This document shows positions 1-8,868 of a DNA stretch of 9,670 nucleotides, piece after piece. Location: NCBI GenBank assembly GCA_028065135.1, contig JAPTWR010000127.1, positions 8,793 to 18,462 of the forward strand, read 5' to 3'. Both the position numbers and the translations under genes were made by a program. Each line of letters starts with the position of its first letter. Position 1 is the stretch's first letter. Source of the DNA: Acidithiobacillus sp. (GTDB lineage Bacteria > Pseudomonadota > Gammaproteobacteria > Acidithiobacillales > Acidithiobacillaceae). The notes under the pieces were generated by a model that searched no databases, was not told the origin of the DNA, and saw only the letters and a program-made list of their open reading frames with translations.

Positions 1-586
1 CGTCTCCAATCCCAGCCTCCCACTGCGTAATGGGCAAAGGCTGCAAACTGCTGTTGGGACCGATGGCGTTGCTCAGTTGCGTTGCCGTGGTATTCAACAG
101 CGTGGACAGATCGTTCAGAGACGCCAAGAGAGGCCCTTTCTGGGCCATGATCTGGTTCGCCAGAACCTCTTCCCGGGGGTTGCCGGACTGCACCATCTGC
201 ACCAGGTAATCCGACAACTGTTCCGGGAAATCAGCGGCGACGGCCTGTATGGCGTAGGCTTCCGCCTCACCGTCACCGCCGATGTTGAGCGCGCCGGTCA
301 CCAGATATTGGGTGACCTGATCCCATCGGGTGTTGTGGCATTGCTCACGAAAGCCCATGGGATTGGTGACCACCGGGCCGAGACCGGCCCAGGTGGCGGC
401 GGCGTAGGGCGCGAGTTGCCCATACGACTGCGCGGCGGACTGTACCTGCGCCCAGGTCTGCGCCATGGCACCGAGCGCCCTGCTGTCTGCCTGCATGGCG
501 GACAACGGATCGGCCAAGGCGGACGCCGGCATGGATACCACGGCCAGAACGGCCAGGAGAGCGGTTGTAAAACGGGTTTTTCGCAT
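1..586 (-). CDS. Secreted protein of unknown family at the trbJ position (C-terminus outside window)
   Basis: Reading leftward from ATG at 584-586 gives 195 uninterrupted residues running off the left edge, so the C-terminus is missing. Residues 1-25 are a clear signal peptide: basic MRKTR, then a hydrophobic stretch, then ASALA before a likely cleavage at ADPLS. The mature part is Ala/Gln-rich and probably helical, with a single Cys at about residue 88 in FREQCHNTRW, and later stretches rich in Gln, Asn and Leu. A G-run (CTGGGGG) about 7 nt upstream is a weak Shine-Dalgarno. The gene lies 85 nt after the EexN-like lipoprotein gene, behind a copy of the 30-bp element. Many trb clusters have the periplasmic protein TrbJ near this position, so a role in the transfer channel or pilus is a reasonable inference. 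I do not recognise a TrbJ signature and give no symbol. Confidence 0.8.
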   Translation of the reverse strand, partial: MRKTRFTTALLAVLAVVSMPASALADPLSAMQADSRALGAMAQTWAQVQSAAQSYGQLAPYAAATWAGLGPVVTNPMGFREQCHNTRWDQVTQYLVTGALNIGGDGEAEAYAIQAVAADFPEQLSDYLVQMVQSGNPREEVLANQIMAQKGPLLASLNDLSTLLNTTATQLSNAIGPNSSLQPLPITQWEAGIGD

Positions 587-619
587 GAGTAACCCCCAGA
601 GAGAAGACGATTCCCTCCG

Positions 620-649
620 GGTATAGCGGGGCAAAACGGGGATAGGTAG
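620..649 (-). promoter_or_regulatory. 30-bp conserved element, copy 1
   Basis: Read on the minus strand, the element is CTACCTATCCCC, ten variable bases (GTTTTGCCCC here), then GCTATACC. It matches copy 2 at 28 of 30 positions and copy 3 at 26 of 30. It sits between the lipoprotein gene stop and the next start, with its right end 33 nt from the ATG at 586. The GCTATA block could be a -10 hexamer, giving a leader of about 25-30 nt, but I see no good -35. It may instead be an operator. A degenerate half copy lies directly upstream at 649-661. Confidence 0.75.
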
Positions 650-671
650 TCTATCGGGGCCGCGTTTACAG

Positions 672-998
672 CTAGTTCAGGGCCTTGGACAGGGTGCTCA
701 GGGTGTTCGGGCTGGATTGGTACTCGATGTCCTGCTGTGCTTGGTCTGCATTGGTACAGTTCGGAGAGGATCCATCCGCAATGCACGGTGCGTGGTTACA
801 TTCCTGGATCAGCTGCTTTCGCTGGCGGGGATGGTGCTGGTAATAGTCCGTCGAGTGATATTGGCTTGCCATGTCGTAGGGCTCCGGCTTGCATACTGCT
901 GTCTGGTCTGCTGGTGCCGGCTTTTTGTGCTCATGCCCACACCCGGCCAATCCCAGGACCGACAACGCGGCCACCACGGCGATCTGCGATACCTTCAT
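672..998 (-). CDS. eexN: EexN-like entry-exclusion lipoprotein
   Basis: This is a 108-residue lipoprotein starting at ATG 996-998, chosen over a longer upstream frame because GGAGGAAG lies just before it and a perfect lipoprotein signal follows. Residues 1-20 are MKVSQ, a hydrophobic core, and the lipobox LAGC, with the lipidated Cys at position 20. The C-terminal half has the pattern YYQHHPRQRKQLIQEC (residues 52-67), then PNCTNAD (79-85). This matches EexN-family proteins, where Y-x-x-HP, a later Cys and P-N-C-x-N-A recur. EexN-type proteins (and TrbK in RP4) sit in the donor envelope and block redundant conjugation between cells carrying the same element. Here the gene follows trbE by 74 nt with a hairpin between, consistent with that role. 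The family call is from motif recall. Function on this element is inferred. Confidence 0.8.
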   Translation of the reverse strand: MKVSQIAVVAALSVLGLAGCGHEHKKPAPADQTAVCKPEPYDMASQYHSTDYYQHHPRQRKQLIQECNHAPCIADGSSPNCTNADQAQQDIEYQSSPNTLSTLSKALN

Positions 999-1022
999 GA
1001 AATCTTCCTCCTTCGGTTCTAT

Positions 1023-1041
1023 GGGCCGGGAAATCCGGCCC
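1023..1041 (-). other. Hairpin between trbE and the lipoprotein gene
   Basis: A perfect 7-bp inverted repeat, GGGCCGG (1023-1029) and CCGGCCC (1035-1041) with a 5-nt loop, lies in the 74-nt trbE-eexN gap. On the minus strand it ends about 12 nt before the Shine-Dalgarno of the lipoprotein gene. It has no following T-run, so it is not a classical terminator. It could stabilise or process the mRNA, or dampen read-through so the lipoprotein is made at a different level from TrbE. Confidence 0.45.
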
Positions 1042-1072
1042 GCACCCAATGGCGCGGATTGTCTCGTCAACC

Positions 1073-3583
1073 TCAGAAAGCCGGATACAGGCGTTCCAGA
1101 AGGCCGATCCAACTCCCCTGAACCGGAACGGGGAGCCGTTCCCGCAACCAGGCCACGGGCCATGTCCGCCCATACAGGTCCCGCAATTCCGCTACCCGCT
1201 TCACGTCGCGAGGATCGGACACGGCGCAGAAAGCCAGGGTCACCGGACCCATGGCAAAAGACACCAGCCGCTGCCCATTAGGGCTGCTCACGTAGTAATC
1301 CTGCTTCGGGGTCGCGGTCTGCAAAAGCTGGATCTGCCGGTCCAGCAGGCCAAAGGCCGTATACATGGGCATCAAGGTGGTCGATCCGGCTTCCCGGTTG
1401 GGCAGAAAAATCTTGGTCGGGCAGCTTTCCTGCAACACCGGAAGCAAGGGGCTCCCGATGAGATCGGCCAGGGACTGCGTGGCGAAGAGGACCGCCGCGT
1501 TCTTCTTGCGCAGCACCTTGAGCCACGCCCGGATTTTGGCCAGGAACAGCGGGTTGTCCAGCAGGGTCCAGGCCTCGTCGAGCACGATCAGCGTGGGGCT
1601 GCCATCCAGCATGGTTTCGATGCGATGGAAGAGGTACAGCAGGATGGGCACCACGATACCCCTGGCGGTATCGCCCTGGGGCAGGCTGTCCATCTCGAAG
1701 GTCAGAAACCGGCTGGAGAGATCCAGACCGTCGTGCCGGGCATCCAACAGATCCCCGTACTTACCCGTGCCCTGGTACACGCCCACCGCCTGTTTCAGGC
1801 GGGCATCCTGCAAGAGGGACACCACGTCGGTAATGGACCGTCCCTGTTCCGATGCCAGACCCTCGATGGCCTGGTGGATGACGGCCCGCTCGGCGGAGGT
1901 CACCGTCACCCCCTGGAGCACAGCCAGGCTTTCCAGCCATTCTTCGGCAAACACCCGCTCGGCCTGGCTATCCACCCGCTCCAGCGGGGCAAAAGACAGC
2001 TTGCTGTACTCTCCGCCCAAGTCGTAGTGCTGGGCCAAGCCCGGCGCGGCAGCGCCCACGGCCTCGGTGAGCGCGAAGAGGGACCGCCCCTTGTCGAAGG
2101 CGATGACCCGCGCGTTGCGATAGCGCAGCCACTGGGCCACGAGCAGCGCCAGCAGACTGGACTTACCAGCACCGGTGGGCCCCAAAATCAGACTGTGCCC
2201 AACATCCGAGACATGCAGATTGAAGCGAAAAGGCGTGGACCCCGAAGTCTTGGCGAAAGTGAGGCACGGTGCCGGTTGGTTCCCCGTGCGCATGAGTGGA
2301 CTGGGACACTCCCGCTCTCCCGCCCAGATCGCCGTTTTGGGCGAAACATCCGCGAAGTTCATGCTGTTCAGCACCGGGCGGCGCACGTTCTCCCAGGTGT
2401 GGCCCGGCAGGCTGCCCAGGAAGGCCTCCACCACATTGACCGTCTCCCGCTTGGCCACGAAGTTGGCGTTGTCGAGCAGGTTCATGACGATCCGAACCCG
2501 ATCCTCCAGCGTCTTGGCGTCCTTCCCGCGTAGCACGACGGTGAATGTGAAATAGCCCAGGCGCACGGCACCGCTGGACACGTCGCCATCGGCCAGCGCG
2601 GTTTCCTGTTCCATGGCCTGCTTGAAGGGATCGGCCCGGTCATGCCGGACCTGACCCCGGTCCAAGGCGGCCGAGAGGTAATCCCGCAGGCTGAATTTGG
2701 AGCTGGCCCACTTCTCCCGATACTTCCCGATCAGCTTCTTGGACTCCTGCTGATCCTGGAGAATGAAGCGGGTGGTGTAGCGCAGCGGGAACGGCAGGCC
2801 GTGCAAATCTTCCAGCAGCACGGGATTCGTGCGGTCCGGGTAGCCCGTCACACTGACCACCTCGATCAACTCCCCGTCGATGGATGGCTCCACGCCGGCG
2901 ATGAAATCGTGGTGCCCGAGAAGCACGTCCAGATAGCCCGGGATCGTCGGGGGATTCACGCCGTGCGCCTTGCCGGTCAGGCACTCATGATAGTGGGTCA
3001 GCAAGCCGCGAGCATCGAGCGGGGATAGCAGAAAGGTCTGCTGCAAGATCCCGGTGACGGCGCGAATGGCGTCCTCGAATTTCTGCAGGAGCACGTCGAA
3101 GGTGTCCGGCTGCGCGTCCTTTTTGGACTCCAGAAACATCTGCCCGGCGGACACTTCGGACTCCGGCGGGGTCTGCCAGGTAAGCGCCAGAGTGTAGCGG
3201 GAGAGAAAGTGCAGGCCCTCCTGCTCGAATTGGGAGCGGCGCTCCAGATCGATGAGGGCGGATACGGGATCGGGGAAGAAGCACCGGCTTTCTTCGATGT
3301 ATCCGTCCGCAGGGACACGGGTGGCCGAGATCTGCACGGTCCATCCCGACCCGAGCCGCGTCAAGGCGGCATTGACGACCGCCGACATACGGTTGATCCC
3401 GGCGTGGGAAAGACTTTCCCGGTCTGGGCCGGAAAATCCGATGACGGACAGGAACGAACCATCCTTGTTCAAGAGGACGGCGCAGGGTTTACCCAGAACC
3501 GTGATCTCGCCCGCCAGGATGGCGGGGTTGAGCAGATCGGGCAGCGCAAGCTCCTTACTGCGAAACTCTTTGACGTTCAGCAT
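1073..3583 (-). CDS. trbE: TrbE, VirB4-family conjugative transfer ATPase
   Basis: This 836-residue protein is a full-length VirB4/TrbE ATPase, the cytoplasmic motor at the inner-membrane base of the conjugation channel, needed for pilus assembly and substrate transfer. Walker A is GPTGAGKSS at residues 468-476. Walker B is LIVLDEAW at about 665-672 with Asp-Glu at 669-670. ATQSLAD at 701-707 is the usual downstream motif. Residues 1-440 form the family's N-terminal domain that contacts TrbD/VirB3 and the channel. Length is normal for the family and no break is seen. The ATG at 3581-3583 lies 29 nt inside the end of trbD and has no convincing Shine-Dalgarno, so it is probably translated by coupling to trbD. 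The long open frames on the opposite strand here are shadows. Confidence 0.95.
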   Translation of the reverse strand: MLNVKEFRSKELALPDLLNPAILAGEITVLGKPCAVLLNKDGSFLSVIGFSGPDRESLSHAGINRMSAVVNAALTRLGSGWTVQISATRVPADGYIEESRCFFPDPVSALIDLERRSQFEQEGLHFLSRYTLALTWQTPPESEVSAGQMFLESKKDAQPDTFDVLLQKFEDAIRAVTGILQQTFLLSPLDARGLLTHYHECLTGKAHGVNPPTIPGYLDVLLGHHDFIAGVEPSIDGELIEVVSVTGYPDRTNPVLLEDLHGLPFPLRYTTRFILQDQQESKKLIGKYREKWASSKFSLRDYLSAALDRGQVRHDRADPFKQAMEQETALADGDVSSGAVRLGYFTFTVVLRGKDAKTLEDRVRIVMNLLDNANFVAKRETVNVVEAFLGSLPGHTWENVRRPVLNSMNFADVSPKTAIWAGERECPSPLMRTGNQPAPCLTFAKTSGSTPFRFNLHVSDVGHSLILGPTGAGKSSLLALLVAQWLRYRNARVIAFDKGRSLFALTEAVGAAAPGLAQHYDLGGEYSKLSFAPLERVDSQAERVFAEEWLESLAVLQGVTVTSAERAVIHQAIEGLASEQGRSITDVVSLLQDARLKQAVGVYQGTGKYGDLLDARHDGLDLSSRFLTFEMDSLPQGDTARGIVVPILLYLFHRIETMLDGSPTLIVLDEAWTLLDNPLFLAKIRAWLKVLRKKNAAVLFATQSLADLIGSPLLPVLQESCPTKIFLPNREAGSTTLMPMYTAFGLLDRQIQLLQTATPKQDYYVSSPNGQRLVSFAMGPVTLAFCAVSDPRDVKRVAELRDLYGRTWPVAWLRERLPVPVQGSWIGLLERLYPAF

Positions 3584-3947
3584 CTTTTCGGGCTCCCAGC
3601 CGGGCTATCCAGGACAGCAGTTTGGTGGTGGCGGGGATGGGGTGCGGGTTGGGGATCTCCCGGTACCCGGCCTCCAGCGTCGCGCCGCTCCCATAGAAGG
3701 TCTGGTACTTTCTGGACCGGTTGACCACCGCGATCATTTGGGCGTCGGATTTCGCCAGATGTTGCAGCACCGCCTGAATCAGCATGAACAGCAGCACGGC
3801 GATGACAGCGCCCGGGATGGAGAGGGTGAAGAAATACACCAGCATCGCAAATCCGGCGTTGTACATTGTCGCTGTGCGTTCCGCCCCCATCAGCAGATGG
3901 GGACGGACCAGCGACTGGTACAGCCGCACCTGCCGTGTTCCGTCCAT
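3555..3947 (-). CDS. trbD: TrbD, VirB3-like inner-membrane protein
   Basis: A 130-residue protein starting at ATG 3945-3947, fixed by a very strong GGAGGAGG 4-6 nt upstream. A longer in-frame extension upstream is an arginine/proline-rich shadow of trbC and is rejected. The N-terminus QSLVRPHLLMGAERT (residues 11-25) is the conserved VirB3/TrbD entry motif. Residues about 33-66 are one long hydrophobic hairpin or one to two membrane segments. The cytoplasmic tail contains DAQMIAVVNRSRKY (about 68-81), also typical. VirB3-family proteins are inner-membrane partners of the VirB4/TrbE ATPase. The gene starts 22 nt after trbC and overlaps trbE by 29 nt, as expected for stoichiometric partners. 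It is somewhat longer than the roughly 100 residues usual for TrbD, with the extra length in the basic C-terminal tail. Confidence 0.88.
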   Translation of the reverse strand: MDGTRQVRLYQSLVRPHLLMGAERTATMYNAGFAMLVYFFTLSIPGAVIAVLLFMLIQAVLQHLAKSDAQMIAVVNRSRKYQTFYGSGATLEAGYREIPNPHPIPATTKLLSWIARLGARKDAERQRVSQ

Positions 3948-3969
3948 CTTTCCTCCTCCGGTCTGGCCG

Positions 3970-4359
3970 TTACAGACCCAGGCCGTGGGCCAGGGTCGCC
4001 AACAGGCCGGCGTGCTGGCCCAACACGGCCGCCTGGATACCGGCCTGCTGGCCGAACCACCCATACTGGGCGATGAGAAAGCCGCCGCCCGCGGCGGTAC
4101 CGATACCGACGGCGGCCTTGCCGTAGTCGTGCTTGAAGGCGTGCACCGCGCCGTAGCCGACGCCGCCGGCCACGCCCACGGACCCGATGAAGGGCATGAA
4201 GTTCTGCTGAACGAAGTTGCTGATGTCCCCGAAGGGGCCACCGGTGGCCGCCAAAGCGGCCGCGGTTCCCGCCAGGGTAAGCCCCACGCCCAGAGCCAGC
4301 TTGGCCTTGCGGCTCAAAGGCCGGCGATTGTACTGCGGCATTGCGTCTACCTGTTCCAT
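3970..4359 (-). CDS. trbC: TrbC, VirB2-like conjugative pilin precursor
   Basis: A 129-residue hydrophobic protein. I chose ATG 4357-4359 (MEQVDAM) because AGAGGA lies 7 nt upstream. A second possible start is ATG 4339-4341 (MPQYNRR). The longer frame back to 4467 runs through the hairpin and the 30-bp element and is not plausible. Residues about 10-20 are basic (NRRPLSRKAK), followed by a signal-like segment LALGVGLTLAGTAAALAA (21-38). Two Gly/Ala-rich membrane segments follow, near 57-71 and 81-98, which is the normal architecture of TrbC/VirB2 pilins that are cleaved and inserted in the inner membrane before pilus assembly. A further 25 or so residues, rich in Gln, Ala and Leu, extend the C-terminus. 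Placement directly before trbD and trbE supports the call. Sequence similarity among pilins is low, so the call rests on architecture and order. Confidence 0.82.
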   Translation of the reverse strand: MEQVDAMPQYNRRPLSRKAKLALGVGLTLAGTAAALAATGGPFGDISNFVQQNFMPFIGSVGVAGGVGYGAVHAFKHDYGKAAVGIGTAAGGGFLIAQYGWFGQQAGIQAAVLGQHAGLLATLAHGLGL

Positions 4360-4420
4360 GTTGCGATTCCTCTTGCAAGCAGGTTGTCCCGTTACCTCGA
4401 CGTATCGGTAGGGACCACTC

Positions 4421-4453
4421 CCGACACGCCACAGGCCCCTTGGCCTGTGTCGG
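4421..4453 (-). other. Strong hairpin in the trbC leader, abutting the 30-bp element
   Basis: CCGACAC (4421-4427) pairs with GTGTCGG (4447-4453), and AGGCC (4433-4437) with GGCCT (4442-4446) around a CCTT loop, giving 12 pairs with a 5-nt bulge. An alternative perfect 8-bp stem is 4430-4437 with 4442-4449. On the minus strand it begins at the base next to the 30-bp element and ends about 60 nt before trbC. No T-run follows. If the element is a promoter, this would form the first part of the trbC mRNA, plausibly stabilising it. Confidence 0.55.
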
Positions 4454-4481
4454 TATAGCGGGGCCAAAAGGGGATAGGTAG
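4452..4481 (-). promoter_or_regulatory. 30-bp conserved element, copy 2
   Basis: Minus-strand CTACCTATCCCC, middle TTTTGGCCCC, then GCTATACC. It lies 4 nt beyond the stop of the DotD-like gene and ends 92 nt before the trbC start. It therefore separates the regulator-trbB unit from trbC-trbD-trbE. It differs from copy 1 at two positions and from copy 3 at two positions, all in the middle block. Interpretation as promoter or operator is inference from position and conservation. Confidence 0.78.
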
Positions 4482-4485
4482 GCCC

Positions 4486-4881
4486 TCAGTCGCCGACCAG
4501 CGGCGCGTTGTGAACCACCAGGACCTGACCACCCAACAGGGCAAAGCTGCCTTGGATGTAGGAGATGCCGGCAATCCGCTTGAGCAGGGTGATGGCGGGG
4601 ACCGCCTCCCCATAGGGAATTTTCTCCCCGATCATGGCGTAGTTCGGCCCGGTGAAACGAAATTGGATATGCAGCTTGCGGGCAATATACCGCAGTGCTC
4701 CGCGCTCACTGACGCGATAGCTGGCCGGTAGCCGCACGTCAAAGAAAAAGGTCGCGGGGGGATCGGAAAAGAAAGAAACACTTGGCTTGGGCCTTACCGG
4801 CGGACTCCGATGCAACACCACCGGGACCGATATTACCGGAACCACCGGAATCTGGAGTTCTGGGGCAAGAGCGTACCACAT
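4486..4881 (-). CDS. Small protein resembling a DotD / secretin-N0 domain, between trbB and trbC
   Basis: A 131-residue protein starting at ATG 4879-4881, with TGAGGA about 8 nt upstream inside the end of trbB. The N-terminal 45 residues are proline-rich with hydrophobic patches (IPVVPVISVPVVL). I see no basic n-region or lipobox, so export is uncertain. Residues about 47-125 read as a beta-alpha-beta-beta-alpha-beta unit: FFFDVRLP, ALRYIARKLHIQFRFTG, MIGEKIPYG, AITLLKRIAGI, GQVLVVHN. That pattern resembles the N0/STN-like fold in secretins, TcpQ/PilL-type proteins and the type IVB lipoprotein DotD. This similarity is from pattern only. The standard trb order has trbC directly after trbB, so this is an insertion within a conserved gene pair. 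A role in the outer-membrane part of the channel or pilus is inference. The gene itself is well supported by its packing. Confidence 0.72.
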   Translation of the reverse strand: MWYALAPELQIPVVPVISVPVVLHRSPPVRPKPSVSFFSDPPATFFFDVRLPASYRVSERGALRYIARKLHIQFRFTGPNYAMIGEKIPYGEAVPAITLLKRIAGISYIQGSFALLGGQVLVVHNAPLVGD

Positions 4882-4891
4882 GGGCTAATCC

Positions 4892-5845
4892 TCACTGATC
4901 GAAACAAACGATATCGGAAACCACACGGCCCGCCGGATGGCCTGGGTCGCGCCGGATCTGGACCACCACGTCCACGGCTTCCCGGATCAAGGCGCTCTGG
5001 GACGGCACCCCCGCCTCCTGGCAAAGCTGGTCCAGACGGATCAGTGCGGCTTCCGGGTCATTCGCGTGCAGGGTGGCCAGTCCCCCGGGGTGACCGGTGT
5101 TCCAGGCCTTGAGCAGCGCCAAAGCGGCGCCGTCGCGCACTTCACCCACAAAGATGCGGTCCGGACGGTAGCGCAAAGTCAGCTTCAGGAGCCGGGTCAT
5201 GTCGATATTGGCATCCGGGTCCGTCAGCATCTGGACGGTGTTGGGTGCCTTGCAGACGATCTCCCGCGTGTCCTCGATGATGACGACACGCTGATCGAGC
5301 CCGGAGACCTGGGCGACCCGATGCGACAGAGCGTTGAGCAGGGTGGTCTTGCCCGAACCGGTCCCACCGCTCACCAAAATGTTCTTGCGCGTGTCCAGGG
5401 CTTCGGTCAGATAATCTCGCTGATCTGGGGCCAGAATGCCGGCATGCACATAGTCCTCCAGGGTGAAGATCCTGGTGGTGGGCAGGCGGATAGAGAACGT
5501 CGGCATGGGCGTCAGAGGCGGGATACAGCCTGCGAAGCGGGCTCGGCGAAACTCGTCGGGCATCGCCCCCTCAACGATGGGCCGGTTCCGGTCCACCACC
5601 GTTTCCCGCCAGGACGCCATGAGGGCCAGGAAGTTGAGCGCCTTGGCCGGACTCATGCGGGTCAGTTCGGTGATCCCGTGTCCATGCCGCTCCACGAGGA
5701 TTCTTCCGTCGTCGTTTAGCATGATTTCAACGGCGGATGGGTCATCGAAAACCGCGCAGATAGTCTCTCCCAGAATCCGGCGCATCTGCTCGATCAACCG
5801 GGCATGGGCCTCGACCTTGGCCTTGTCGATGGAATGCAGCGTCAT
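4892..5845 (-). CDS. trbB: TrbB, VirB11-family secretion ATPase
   Basis: A 317-residue hexameric-type ATPase that powers conjugative pilus assembly and substrate transfer at the inner membrane. All family motifs are visible in order: Walker A GGTGSGKTT at residues 160-168, Asp box IIEDTREI at 189-196, Walker B RIFVGEVRDGA at 230-240, and His box HPGGLATLHAND at 252-263. Length is typical of TrbB. The start at ATG 5843-5845 is supported by GGAGG 8 nt upstream and lies only 3 nt after the stop of the upstream regulator gene, so the two are almost certainly co-transcribed and translationally coupled. A long open frame on the opposite strand over the same region is a shadow. Confidence 0.96.
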   Translation of the reverse strand: MTLHSIDKAKVEAHARLIEQMRRILGETICAVFDDPSAVEIMLNDDGRILVERHGHGITELTRMSPAKALNFLALMASWRETVVDRNRPIVEGAMPDEFRRARFAGCIPPLTPMPTFSIRLPTTRIFTLEDYVHAGILAPDQRDYLTEALDTRKNILVSGGTGSGKTTLLNALSHRVAQVSGLDQRVVIIEDTREIVCKAPNTVQMLTDPDANIDMTRLLKLTLRYRPDRIFVGEVRDGAALALLKAWNTGHPGGLATLHANDPEAALIRLDQLCQEAGVPSQSALIREAVDVVVQIRRDPGHPAGRVVSDIVCFDQ

Positions 5846-5848
5846 GGG

Positions 5849-6316
5849 TCATTCCTCCGTCGGGTTCTCGTCTTCAACAACGATGCGCTGCTCCAGCAGC
5901 CGGGCGATCCGGCGCAACGCCCGGGGCCGGTCCCCGTCGAATCCCATCTGGGCCACTTGCGTCAAAAACCGCTCGTAGCGAGTCAGCGCAGAGGACCGGA
6001 CGGCCTCCGCCTCATCAAGAACCGGCTCCGGCAGGTGCAGCAGCATGAGTTTGACGAACATATCGAACATGGCCGTGAGGGTATCCAACTCGGCTTGCAC
6101 GGCCTCCACATCCCCCCTGAGCGCCAGGATCGTTGCGGACATGCGCCGCTCGAAGCCGCGCAGATCGCCGTCTCCCGCCGTGTTGGCCGCCTCGATGCCG
6201 CGAAGCGCATAATCCGTGATCAAGGCGGCCCTGGAGACGCGCTTCTCCCGAGATTCCTTTTCGATACGGTCGGCATAACGACCGATGAGCTTTACTTGTC
6301 CGAATACCGTGGGCAT
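5849..6316 (-). CDS. Ribbon-helix-helix-like regulator with helical C-terminus, first gene of the trb cluster
   Basis: A 155-residue protein starting at ATG 6314-6316, fixed by AGGAGG 6 nt upstream. Residues about 4-42 contain a strand-like segment (VFGQVKLIGRYA), a charged helix (DRIEKESREKR) and a second helix beginning VSRAALITDYALRGI. This is the layout of a ribbon-helix-helix (CopG/MetJ-type) DNA-binding domain. The rest is mostly helical and charged, with a likely coiled coil near 55-90 and an acidic end (EDENPTEE). Small CopG-like genes next to trbB occur in Tn4371-type conjugative elements (recalled, not searched). The gene lies 3 nt before trbB and 29 nt after a copy of the 30-bp element, so it may regulate its own unit and the other element-headed units. 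A relaxosome accessory role, like MobC or TraM, is an alternative. The fold is inferred from pattern only. Confidence 0.75.
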   Translation of the reverse strand: MPTVFGQVKLIGRYADRIEKESREKRVSRAALITDYALRGIEAANTAGDGDLRGFERRMSATILALRGDVEAVQAELDTLTAMFDMFVKLMLLHLPEPVLDEAEAVRSSALTRYERFLTQVAQMGFDGDRPRALRRIARLLEQRIVVEDENPTEE

Positions 6317-6344
6317 GGGCCCCTCCTGTTCATCGTCCCGCTTT

Positions 6345-6374
6345 GGTATAGCCGGACCAAAAGGGGATAGGTAG
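6345..6374 (-). promoter_or_regulatory. 30-bp conserved element, copy 3
   Basis: Minus-strand CTACCTATCCCC, middle TTTTGGTCCG, then GCTATACC. Its right end is 28 nt from the ATG of the regulator gene at 6316, closely matching the 33 nt seen for copy 1. It is the most upstream transfer-block signal in the window and probably marks the start of the cluster. It differs from copy 2 at two positions. Two CTAT cores, 19 bp apart, lie on about the same helical face, which would suit either paired regulator dimers or a promoter. Confidence 0.76.
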
Positions 6375-6560
6375 GGGCTTGCGGACGGCGGGCAATGACA
6401 GTGGTAAGGCTTAACACAGAGCAGAATTGATCTGAGCAACAAAGCTCTCCCTAGCCGCGATGGCGGCAATAGATTCCCAAGTAGCGCCATCAGGCGTGAT
6501 GCGCTACTGTTGACATCATTCAGGGACAAACGGAAGCGCGCAGCAGGTGCCCGCCCAGAG
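6375..6560. other. Junction region without a gene, containing hairpins
   Basis: No open frame or Shine-Dalgarno here supports a gene. The stretch lies between the first element of the transfer block and a decayed phospholipase D fragment. It contains a small stem at 6454-6467 (GCCGC, GATG, GCGGC) and a larger one at 6480-6508. It probably holds the boundary between the transfer block and other DNA. A terminator, recombination site or part of an origin of transfer are all possible, but nothing distinguishes them. Confidence 0.4.
6480..6508. terminator. 12-bp stem with one bulge, possible bidirectional terminator or recombination site
   Basis: AGTAGCGC (6480-6487) pairs with GCGCTACT (6501-6508), and ATCA (6489-6492) with TGAT (6497-6500), around a GGCG loop with C6488 bulged. 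There is no strong T-run on either side, so factor-independent termination is uncertain. The imperfect palindrome lies in the junction region and could equally be a protein-binding or recombination site. Confidence 0.35.
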
Positions 6561-6565
6561 AAGAG

Positions 6566-6799
6566 GTGGCTTTCCTGGAGCAGCACGGAGTCCAGGTGCG
6601 CCTGACGAAGAAACGTCCTATATACATGCATGCCGAGGCGGATATTTCGAGCCGCTACGCATTTGTGGGCAGCGAGAACTACAGTACGTCTTCACTTGAG
6701 GGGAACCGCGAGATGGGCTTAATTCTGACCAACCCAACGGATGTTTCCAGATTGCCGGCGCAATTTGCACAGGATCGCAAGGTGGCGGGGACGGCATGA
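6566..6799 (+). pseudogene. C-terminal fragment of a phospholipase D-family gene
   Basis: Residues YAFVGSENYSTSS and NREMGLIL match the end of phospholipase D-superfamily proteins, where a second HKD motif (H-x-K-x4-D) precedes a GS-x-N block and an NRE motif. Only about 80 residues survive. The in-frame sequence upstream is unrelated and ends at a TGA at 6497-6499, so the N-terminal half with the first HKD is missing. The remaining HKD is also degraded: it reads HAEADISS, with Glu for the catalytic Lys and no Asp at the expected place. A GTG at 6566 opens the frame, but a translated product would be inactive. The stop TGA overlaps the next ATG as ATGA, so the intact ancestor was probably in an operon with the downstream gene. 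The fragment is best read as a relic left at a rearrangement point. Confidence 0.75.
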
Positions 6800-7470
6800 G
6801 GCGCGCGCATATTCTGTGGCTGCTTCTCGGATTGCCGGCCCTGGCTGTGGCGCAAGTGCCACCGCCCGCCCTCACCAGCGTCAATTTTCATGTGGTGACG
6901 CATTATCGGGTGCCCAGGACGGTGCTGCATGCCGATCTGCAGGCAGAGGCATCGGGAAAAAATCCGGTGCAGCTGGCCTCCATGGTCAATCAGGACGTGG
7001 CCTGGGCAAAAGCACGGCTGCAATCGGTGCCTGGGATTACCTGGCGTAGCGCCGGGTACCAGACGCAGGCGACGGGCCAGGCCGGTGCGCCTTGGCTGGT
7101 ACGGGAAGACCTGGCCGTGCAAAGCCCGAATCCGTCCGCGCTGCTCCCCTTGCTGGGCACATTGCAATCCCGGTTACACTTGGTCGGGCTGCATTATGCA
7201 GCGCGTCCCGCCGCCGCACACAAGGCACTGAGAGGGGCCGAGCTGCGGGGGCTGCGCCGATACCGAAAAGAAGCACAGCAGAATTGCGATGTGCTAGGCT
7301 TCAAAGGGGTGCGTCTGGGACAGATCTTCATCAACACGAATATCGTCCCATTGGCGCGGCCTGTGCCGATGATGGCCATGGCCGCCCGTGTTGTCCCCGG
7401 GCCGGTAGTAGGCCGAGGTGGGACGGAAAGTGGCAGGGTGGTGGTTGGGGGTAACGCTTATTGCGAGTGA
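6796..7470 (+). CDS. Secreted SIMPL/DUF541-domain protein
   Basis: A 224-residue protein with a signal peptide (MRRAHILWLLLGLPALAVAQ, probable cleavage near residue 20). The mature part has features of the SIMPL (DUF541) family: an early strand region, a long helix MVNQDVAWAKARLQSVPG (about 63-80), the segment WLVREDLAVQSPN (100-112), a helix after LHYAARPAAAHKALRGAELRGL, then GFKGVRLGQIFIN (168-180) and a C-terminal strand VVVGGNAYCE. Members are periplasmic or surface proteins of poorly known function, some linked to oxidative or envelope stress. The ATG at 6796 overlaps the stop of the phospholipase D fragment as ATGA and lacks a good Shine-Dalgarno, so translation was probably coupled to the lost upstream gene. 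Whether it is still expressed here is unclear. The family call is from pattern recall. Confidence 0.75.
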   Translation: MRRAHILWLLLGLPALAVAQVPPPALTSVNFHVVTHYRVPRTVLHADLQAEASGKNPVQLASMVNQDVAWAKARLQSVPGITWRSAGYQTQATGQAGAPWLVREDLAVQSPNPSALLPLLGTLQSRLHLVGLHYAARPAAAHKALRGAELRGLRRYRKEAQQNCDVLGFKGVRLGQIFINTNIVPLARPVPMMAMAARVVPGPVVGRGGTESGRVVVGGNAYCE

Positions 7471-7643: not shown

Positions 7644-8760
7644 TCAGATGCCTGCTAGTTCCTTAAAATTCACTTTTATCCGCAAAATACCCACCAGATC
7701 CGTAGGCAAGTCACCTCCGGGATGAATCACGACCTGTATATCTGGTTGAAGACGGACACCATGAGCCAGCCCAAATAATCCGGTCAGCTCATAGCTGGTT
7801 TCGGCATGAGGCAAGCCACGCAGACTGGCCCGCGAGAAGCCCACGGACAGGGAGTCTTTCGCAGAACGAGGGATAAGCCCTGCCAGACGCAGACCTCCTC
7901 CAACATACCAGGGTACCGGATTGATAGGTTTTGGCGCTCCGCCTCCCTGGAGGAAAACTCCCCAATGTAGAGGGCCTGTCTGCCAACGGTATTCGCCGAT
8001 GCCATAACAACCGCTCATGTTGGGGCCCAGGCTGCCGGCCAGAGACGCTTTCTGCCGATTGTGCATGACCCCCATCTTGAGGGTATAACGCCCGTCGTAC
8101 AGTGTGCCGCTTTGATCCAGTTCGAGCATCATGAGGACGCCTTGGGAAAAGGGTTGTTGCCAAGAATGGATGGCGTCGGCGCCAAAAACACCGCCTTGAA
8201 TGGAGGTATCCCCGCCACCGAGCGCGACCATGGTTCCCAGACTGGAAAATGGGTACGTCGGCATCCCCTGCAGATTCTGGCTCAGGATGGGAAGGATCCC
8301 GAAGGAAGCATTGAGCAGATCACAGGCCACGCCGGCGTTGTCGAAATAATCATTGGCGTTCAATAGACCGAGCCGCACGCTGAGCGGATTCCATCGTTGC
8401 CGGAAATACAGTCGATAGGGCCAGGCTATCGGGGGTCGTGAGATTGCTGACTCCCTGGACATCACCCACATACGCTTCCGGATTGCCGGTATCGACCGCC
8501 AGAAAGTTCACGACGACTTTGCCGCCTTTCCATGCTCCCGCGCTCTTACTATCCCAGGAAAGTCCACCGACGAACAAGACGTTTCCCACGCTGCCCGTGG
8601 CCAGCCCTCCCGTTAGATTGCTCACGACCTCTCCCTGGGCCTTGGCTTTTAGGCGGATGCCGGACCAAAAAGATGGGGTAGCCACTGGCCCTTCGGCACT
8701 TGCATGGCCCCCAGCCGCCATCAGAAACACCACACCCCACCACAAATACAGACAGCGCAT
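7644..8760 (-). pseudogene. oprB: OprB-family porin gene with a frameshift
   Basis: The start at ATG 8758-8760 has AAGGAG 7 nt upstream and encodes a signal peptide (MRCLYLWWGVVFLMAAGGHASA). Frame one then gives SFWSGIRLKAKAQGE, GKVVVNFLAVDTGNP and GDVQGVSNLTTP. A different minus frame continues with YRLYFRQRW, VRLGLLNANDYFD, NASFGILPILS and TYPFSSLG, ending in a strand-rich barrel. Together these match the outer-membrane carbohydrate porin OprB in order, over about 372 codons. The shift falls near a run of five G (8431-8435), where one base too many would account for it. Downstream of it, frame one runs to a stop at 8350. The second piece lacks its own signal peptide, so a functional porin needs a correction of frame. 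Sequencing error, true decay or slippage cannot be told apart from one sequence. OprB-type porins admit sugars and other small solutes. Confidence 0.78.
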
Positions 8761-8868
8761 AACCACACTCCTTGCGAATGCCCGCCAGGGCATCCCCACG
8801 AGTCAGCGGTAACGCTCACCAACAGACAATTTCTCGTAAATGAATATCCGGAAAACAGTATAGATGGA
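8761..8868 (-). promoter_or_regulatory. Porin gene leader with inverted repeat
   Basis: The 108-bp gap between the OsmC-family gene and the porin gene contains ATGCCC (8778-8783) and GGGCAT (8788-8793) around GCCA. The palindrome ends just upstream of the porin Shine-Dalgarno on the minus strand. It could be an operator or leader hairpin. The gap becomes A+T-rich above about 8820, where a porin promoter may lie, but I cannot place -35 and -10 hexamers with confidence. Confidence 0.35.

Follow-up and report, generated by a model that had tools for sequence, protein, structure and literature searches.

A 30-bp repeat as probable transfer-gene promoter and member of an element-wide regulon in Acidithiobacillus conjugative elements, with a proposed CI/sigma-like switch

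Three repeat copies in a trb-type transfer cluster

The stretch analysed here (the window) is 9,670 nucleotides of DNA from Acidithiobacillus sp. (contig JAPTWR010000127.1, positions 8,793 to 18,462) and carries a cluster of trb-type type IV secretion system (T4SS) genes, with Pfam support for VirB4/TrbE, VirB11/TrbB, and VirB3/TrbD. An earlier note on this DNA had pointed to a 30-bp element repeated three times within the cluster. All three copies are present on the minus strand as it described, each with an invariant upstream box (CTACCTATCCCC) and an invariant -10-like end (GCTATACC). Copy 1 lies at 620..649 (upstream box 649-638, -10-like element 627-620), 33 nt ahead of the start codon (ATG, A at 586) of an exported-protein gene; copy 2 lies at 4452..4481 (4481-4470 and 4459-4452), 92 nt before a trbC-like ATG (A at 4359); and copy 3 lies at 6345..6374 (6374-6363 and 6352-6345), 28 nt before the ATG of a gene for a 155-amino-acid (aa) protein (A at 6316). 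The distances of 28 and 33 nt agree with those given previously. Pairwise identities are 28/30, 28/30, and 26/30, and with up to three mismatches allowed the repeat pattern occurs three times in the window against a mean of 0.00 in 200 dinucleotide shuffles. Judged from the conserved letters at motif positions 35-37, transcription would start near 6339 for copy 3 and near 4446 for copy 2; the CA start-site letters are missing from copy 1. The three repeats look like copies of a dedicated on-switch in front of the transfer and DNA-handling genes of a mobile element. We consider it somewhat probable that an Acidithiobacillus integrative and conjugative element (ICE) uses the repeat as its transfer-gene promoter, within an element-wide regulon under a CI/sigma-like switch.

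All genes of the cluster are on the minus strand. First behind copy 3 is the 155-aa protein gene (5849..6316), whose product is ribbon-helix-helix-like by eye only and has no credible Pfam match; an orthologue, 66% identical, lies behind the same element in island A, one of the genomic islands described below. It is followed by a trbB-like (VirB11) ATPase gene (4892..5845; PF00437 T2SSE, 130.9 bits, with trbB names among plasmid matches) and, downstream of trbB, a 131-aa protein gene with no Pfam or NCBIfam match (4486..4881). Behind copy 2 is the trbC-like gene (3970..4359), which is named by position and size only, has no Pfam match, and is matched in islands A and B by orthologues that likewise lie behind the element. 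The genes for a trbD-like (VirB3) protein (3555..3947; PF05101 VirB3, 48.5 bits), an 836-aa trbE-like (VirB4) ATPase (1073..3583; PF03135, 52.4 bits, and PF19044, 49.8 bits), and a small lipoprotein-like product (672..998; N-terminus judged by eye, no Pfam match) come next. The exported-protein gene behind copy 1 (1..586) is cut by the window end and heads a trbJ-trbL-like block. Its product has a 339-aa full-length orthologue behind the element in island B and no Pfam match, and in island A the element stands directly before the trbJ-like gene. The gene behind copy 1 thus codes for an exported protein and immediately precedes a trbJ-like gene; it is not clearly trbJ itself.

Just past the transfer cluster, at 6566-6799, a PLD-like piece matches the second half of its profile only (PLDc_2, 34.8 bits) and is probably a gene remnant. 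At 7644-8799 there are two overlapping minus-strand frames (275 aa with an OprB porin match and 149 aa with no match), which may come from a single porin gene that has been disrupted or from a sequencing error.

Island confinement and anatomy of the motif

An exact scan of the species-genome collection returned three matches, all in Acidithiobacillus sp. YTS05 (G001). With up to three mismatches to the strict pattern, YTS05 has 15 copies against 0 for the reversed control, and all 15 lie in two islands, A (~1.686-1.779 Mb) and B (~2.578-2.714 Mb); the many copies at random host places that the earlier note would have counted against its proposal were not found. A widened pattern adds two sites, at 1746620 in island A and at 2051580 outside both islands. 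The sister genome G002 has nine matches, eight in island C and one (2222085, three mismatches) in a second element, F, against one for the reversed control. Across the family, 5 of 29 genomes match the widened pattern with up to two mismatches, and the reversed control gives one match in total. G005 and G029 have one match each, apparently by chance; together with YTS05 2051580, these outside-island matches (on contigs C63 and C40, respectively) have other 3' cores (AGCTATGCC, GCAATACC) and were set aside.

The window is 97.7-98.6% identical to island C over positions 1-7235, and matches island B over 1-6388 in two pieces (98.5% and 93.2%). No similar phage DNA was found by megablast, the only plasmid matches were short trbB matches to rhizobial plasmids, and the exact motif was not found in viral contigs. 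Island bounds were set by gene homology, from parB to the traG side, and a coupling protein, T4SS, relaxase-like, and partition genes share an island, as in an ICE: the genes include T4SS-DNA_transf, VirB8, T2SSE, TrbE, VirB3, DUF3363 (relaxase-like), ParA, SSB, a topoisomerase, and ArdC. Islands A and B have retained the element in front of orthologous genes, with orientation unchanged and distance similar, and the proteins encoded by these genes are 42-81% identical. This conservation, and the fixed internal spacing of the element, argue against copies without a regulatory function that arose through duplication or as a dispersed mobile repeat. That explanation has in its favour that the copies are non-coding and mutually similar, but we regard it as very improbable.

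In island B, ~34 kb (G001:C1 2662300-2696470) splits the YTS05 counterpart of the 131-aa gene downstream of trbB. The insert begins with Tn7-type genes (TnsA by Pfam) and carries metal-efflux-like cargo (by eye), and much of it recurs in element F of G002 at 87-100% protein identity. In island A, topB (G001:C1 1729210-1732692) is interrupted by ~1.4 kb and has an in-frame stop, so this island may be decaying with its promoters remaining.

The consensus of 25 distinct sites is CTRCCKATCCCC, seven loosely conserved bases, and CYGGCTATACC, followed by C35 (17/25), A36 (18/25, otherwise G), and G37 (21/25). Variation is limited to the middle of the repeat in the window, as had been claimed, but not in its relatives, where position 3 varies between A and G and position 6 between G and T (with C in two sites); conservation of the 3' half begins at C20 (24/25), with G at position 22 in 20/25. 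If transcription starts at position 36 or 37, 6-7 nt past CTATACC, then TATACC would fall at the -10 place, with GGCTATACC as the -10 element, and the box at positions 1-12, CTACC(G/T)ATCCCC, would be an upstream element at about -36 to -25. A host sigma-70 promoter would have a TTGACA-like -35 ~17 bp before a TATAAT-like hexamer, whereas the repeats have CTACCK at the -35 place and TATACC at -10. Within 10 nt of the element, the only conserved features are the start-site-like letters after CTATACC and a preference for A or C at -4, and there is no second promoter hexamer (wider flanks were inspected by eye only).

Applied with a cut-off of 14 to 2.82 Mb of first-order Markov sequence, a weight matrix trained on these 25 sites returned nothing; its counts are not independent, several of the sites coming from islands that are nearly identical (B, C, and the window). 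Matrix sites in the islands precede traG (T4SS-DNA_transf), a gene for a 224-aa TraF-like protein (by eye; no Pfam match), topB, ssb, the 155-aa gene, trbC, the trbJ block, trbF (VirB8), ardC, and a gene for a 1066-aa protein that aligns with the DNA-polymerase-A protein of island B. The earlier note had expected further copies before the coupling protein, later trb genes, and the relaxase. This was borne out for traG and trbF/virB8; the relaxase-like DUF3363 gene lies further downstream on the same strand, and topB is an additional case. These copies before transfer genes of related islands support its proposal of a shared promoter or operator that co-ordinates a transfer system.

Two upstream boxes on one -10-like core

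YTS05 has 54 occurrences of the 9-mer GGCTATACC, and the islands, 8.4% of the genome, account for 29 of these (binomial P ~1e-17). The 25 occurrences outside the islands are at background level, because the reversed 9-mer occurs 30 times genome-wide, and a host origin of this -10 was rejected on this ground. Thirteen of the 29 island sites have the repeat's own box, 12 have CGCAAC at an exact distance instead, two (ardC) have CTATACC again, and two have neither. Where a gene could be assigned, the CGCAAC sites precede parA, ssb, a polymerase gene, or a gene for a 181-aa or 327/328-aa protein. A script assigned a start codon to 23 of the 29 island sites and none to the other six; 21 of the 23 lie 26-58 nt from it, and the remaining two 93 and 105 nt.

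The same two boxes stand out among 152 GCTATACC sites from all fetched stretches, flanks included. The start of ATC(C/G)C falls at -16 in 46 sites, and at any other offset in two at most; CGCAAC begins at -14 in 21 sites and at no other place within the 30 nt. Twelve sites count in both classes. CGCAAC is found at 7/24 sites in island A, 6/27 in B, and 6/25 in C, and at 0/19 in E, 1/30 in F, and 0/21 in an element of G025, although these counts are not independent because B and C are near-identical. The G025 element (G025:C1 2211844-2263429) has CTATACC promoters with different upstream boxes, CACCGA standing at a fixed place in four sites, one of them before ssb. We suggest a second promoter class, with a CGCAAC upstream box and the same -10, that would serve replication and partition genes; judged from their upstream regions, these genes would join the regulon, which goes beyond the earlier note.

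These boxes also bear on whether the repeat is an operator, that is, a direct repeat of CTATMCC ~19 bp apart that is bound by an ICE repressor (the 155-aa or a KorA/KorB-like protein) and overlaps ordinary promoters. The trb operons of IncP plasmids are repressor-controlled, the small protein encoded first behind copy 3 could be an autoregulator, and both halves read CTATACC at two ardC promoters (A 1767422, B 2590288). Yet in 25 of the 29 island sites the upstream half is of the ATCCCC type or CGCAAC and not a copy of the 3' half, no second promoter hexamer lies within 10 nt of the element, and the repeats of the CI/cro region differ (ATAACC). We consider an operator improbable.

The survey of topB extended to more distant elements (38 rows, 30 with the locus examined; one of the 30, L137, begins within the gene and so is of no use here). 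The 140 nt upstream of topB contain GCTATACC in eight of the 30 loci, TCTATACC in eight, and neither in 14. The distance from GCTATACC to the topB start codon is 36-41 nt in G001, G002 (both), G026, G024, and G025; in G005 and one of the G013 copies it is 35 nt. The eight TCTATACC loci (L119-L123 and L133-L135, in G011, G015, G016, G018, G019, and G025; TopB 51-56% identical) have GATCTATACC 36-58 nt before topB, after CCGACCCAACAAC in 7 of the 8, and may form a sister promoter class. Neither motif was found at the six topB homologues of 35-38% identity, or at closer ones in G013 (63%), G016 and G024 (second copies, 53%), G021 (53%), G022 (51%), and G008 and G019 (44%).

A candidate sigma-like reader and known transfer regulons

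A candidate element-encoded reader of this promoter, which the earlier note did not have, is a 476-aa orphan protein of island B (2591460-2592890) for which a sigma region-2-like (sigma-2) fold is predicted. No sigma match was found in Pfam, NCBIfam, or the PDB, by sequence or by profile, and no Pfam sigma-70 domain scored above its curated cut-off in any of 16 family members, the best score being 13.2 bits for the island-A homologue (PF04542 cut-off 24). Foldseek, run on the full-length model, likewise returned nothing meaningful. Residues 217-329 form a confident helical domain, for which the matches listed are assorted helical proteins; sigma region 4 was not seen among them, and the sigma region-2 profile gave no sensible match to this domain. 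Of 30 loci, the 27 whose sigma sequences passed a length and pattern filter were used and three were dropped, and the protein-database search scored only 7,993 candidates. The G025 protein encoded upstream of ardC has only a tail motif in common with the sigma-like protein. Compared with T4 gp55, from a lytic phage, and other minimal or diverged phage sigma factors, this ICE protein is long and has a conserved tail as well as a second helical domain. No pertinent report of an ICE or conjugative plasmid with a sigma factor of its own was found among titles and abstract openings in the open-access literature searched, which leaves out most subscription papers.

We propose that an S24-peptidase CI repressor silences the cro operon at a host-type TTGACA promoter; upstream of this operon we found, by eye, TTGACA-N16-TATACT in island B and TTGACA-N17-TATTTT in island A. 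Relief of CI, for which the S24 domain suggests an SOS route, would let host sigma-70 transcribe the cro operon and so produce the orphan sigma-2-like protein. This protein would bring core RNA polymerase to the CTATACC promoters, and the upstream boxes would set promoter class and strength. In A. caldus, excision of ICE-2 elements changes after DNA damage (PMC3826726). Weighing against a sigma-like reader, G/TCTATACC precedes topB in eight genomes with no detectable sigma-like homologue (G005, G011, G013, G015, G016, G018, G019, and G024).

Alternatively, sigma-70 holoenzyme may use TATACC as a poor -10 and be recruited by an ICE activator bound at CTACCKATCCCC, with another at CGCAAC, leaving the sigma-like protein some other job. 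Class II activators bind around -36 to -25, where the conserved upstream box lies, and two box types sharing one -10 would fit this arrangement, as would the master-activator regulons (AcaCD, SetCD, BisDC) described for ICEs and plasmids. Candidate DNA-binding proteins encoded by the ICE are an AlpA-like protein with HTH_17 and a winged-helix-like protein, tandemly duplicated in island B (G001:C1 2650547-2651290) and single-copy in island A (1737516-1737896), which may bind an upstream box. However, sigma-70 most needs T at the last -10 place, which TATACC lacks, yet CTATACC is the least variable part of the motif. In addition, the 9-mer outside the islands is not commoner than its reversed control (25 against 30 genome-wide), and no FlhC family member was found in either of two genomes, FlhD not having been searched for. 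An FlhDC-like activator in particular was rejected, as PF05280 has no match at E <= 1 in G001 or G002 (FlhD again outside the search); as a control, it matches 5 of 14 named genomes including E. coli, one above the cut-off. We regard an activator as possible but rather unlikely, and continue to favour the sigma-like reader.

A shared motif before ICE transfer promoters is known in kind, and the claim that the repeat has no described equivalent is too strong at that level. AcaCD and SetCD are FlhDC-type activators that work with sigma-70, and BisDC is reportedly FlhDC-like. IncA/C plasmids (AcaCD) and SXT/R391 ICEs (SetCD) likewise have a common box ahead of transfer operons, there with a master activator that dependent islands also use. 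ICEclc has a 27-bp motif common to 8 of 9 transfer-regulon promoters and its own regulator cascade, with BisDC binding sites that its authors say still need confirming (PMC9286271), and host RpoS is reported to affect it (PMC3395598). The likeness to ICEclc is one short motif across transfer-regulon promoters; the differences are that the conserved part here includes a -10-like core and two upstream box classes, and that the T4SS is of the trb type. Unlike the BisDC-, AcaCD-, and SetCD-controlled elements, the two genomes tested here have no FlhC homologue (FlhD not searched for). Also similar are ICEAcaTY.2 and ICEAcaSM.2 of A. caldus (ICE-2 type), which share a Trb T4SS, a cI/Cro phage-like module, and ParAB, and are reported with cI, cII, and Cro; the main text on them names no promoter motif or sigma factor (PMC3826726). 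Promoters of ICEAfe1 were predicted with general software, and no shared motif is reported in the portions available (PMC6370655). For this Acidithiobacillus motif itself, no description was found in the literature text consulted, including these two papers; the sigma link is a bold reading.

It is plausible, although we hold it tentatively, that the ICEs of Acidithiobacillus have an extremely diverged sigma factor of their own, in which a sigma-2 domain is joined to an unrelated DNA-binding domain, that lifting of CI redirects host RNA polymerase to CTATACC, and that the two box classes split replication and partition from transfer in a phage-like early/late switch. If so, biomining bacteria would have a single defined conjugation switch, sigma-factor substitution would join the known modes of transfer control in conjugative elements, and a sigma family would have been overlooked by sequence profiles. 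The promoter signature, ATC(C/G)C or CGCAAC followed by GCTATACC, would then serve to annotate transfer regulons where genetics is hard.
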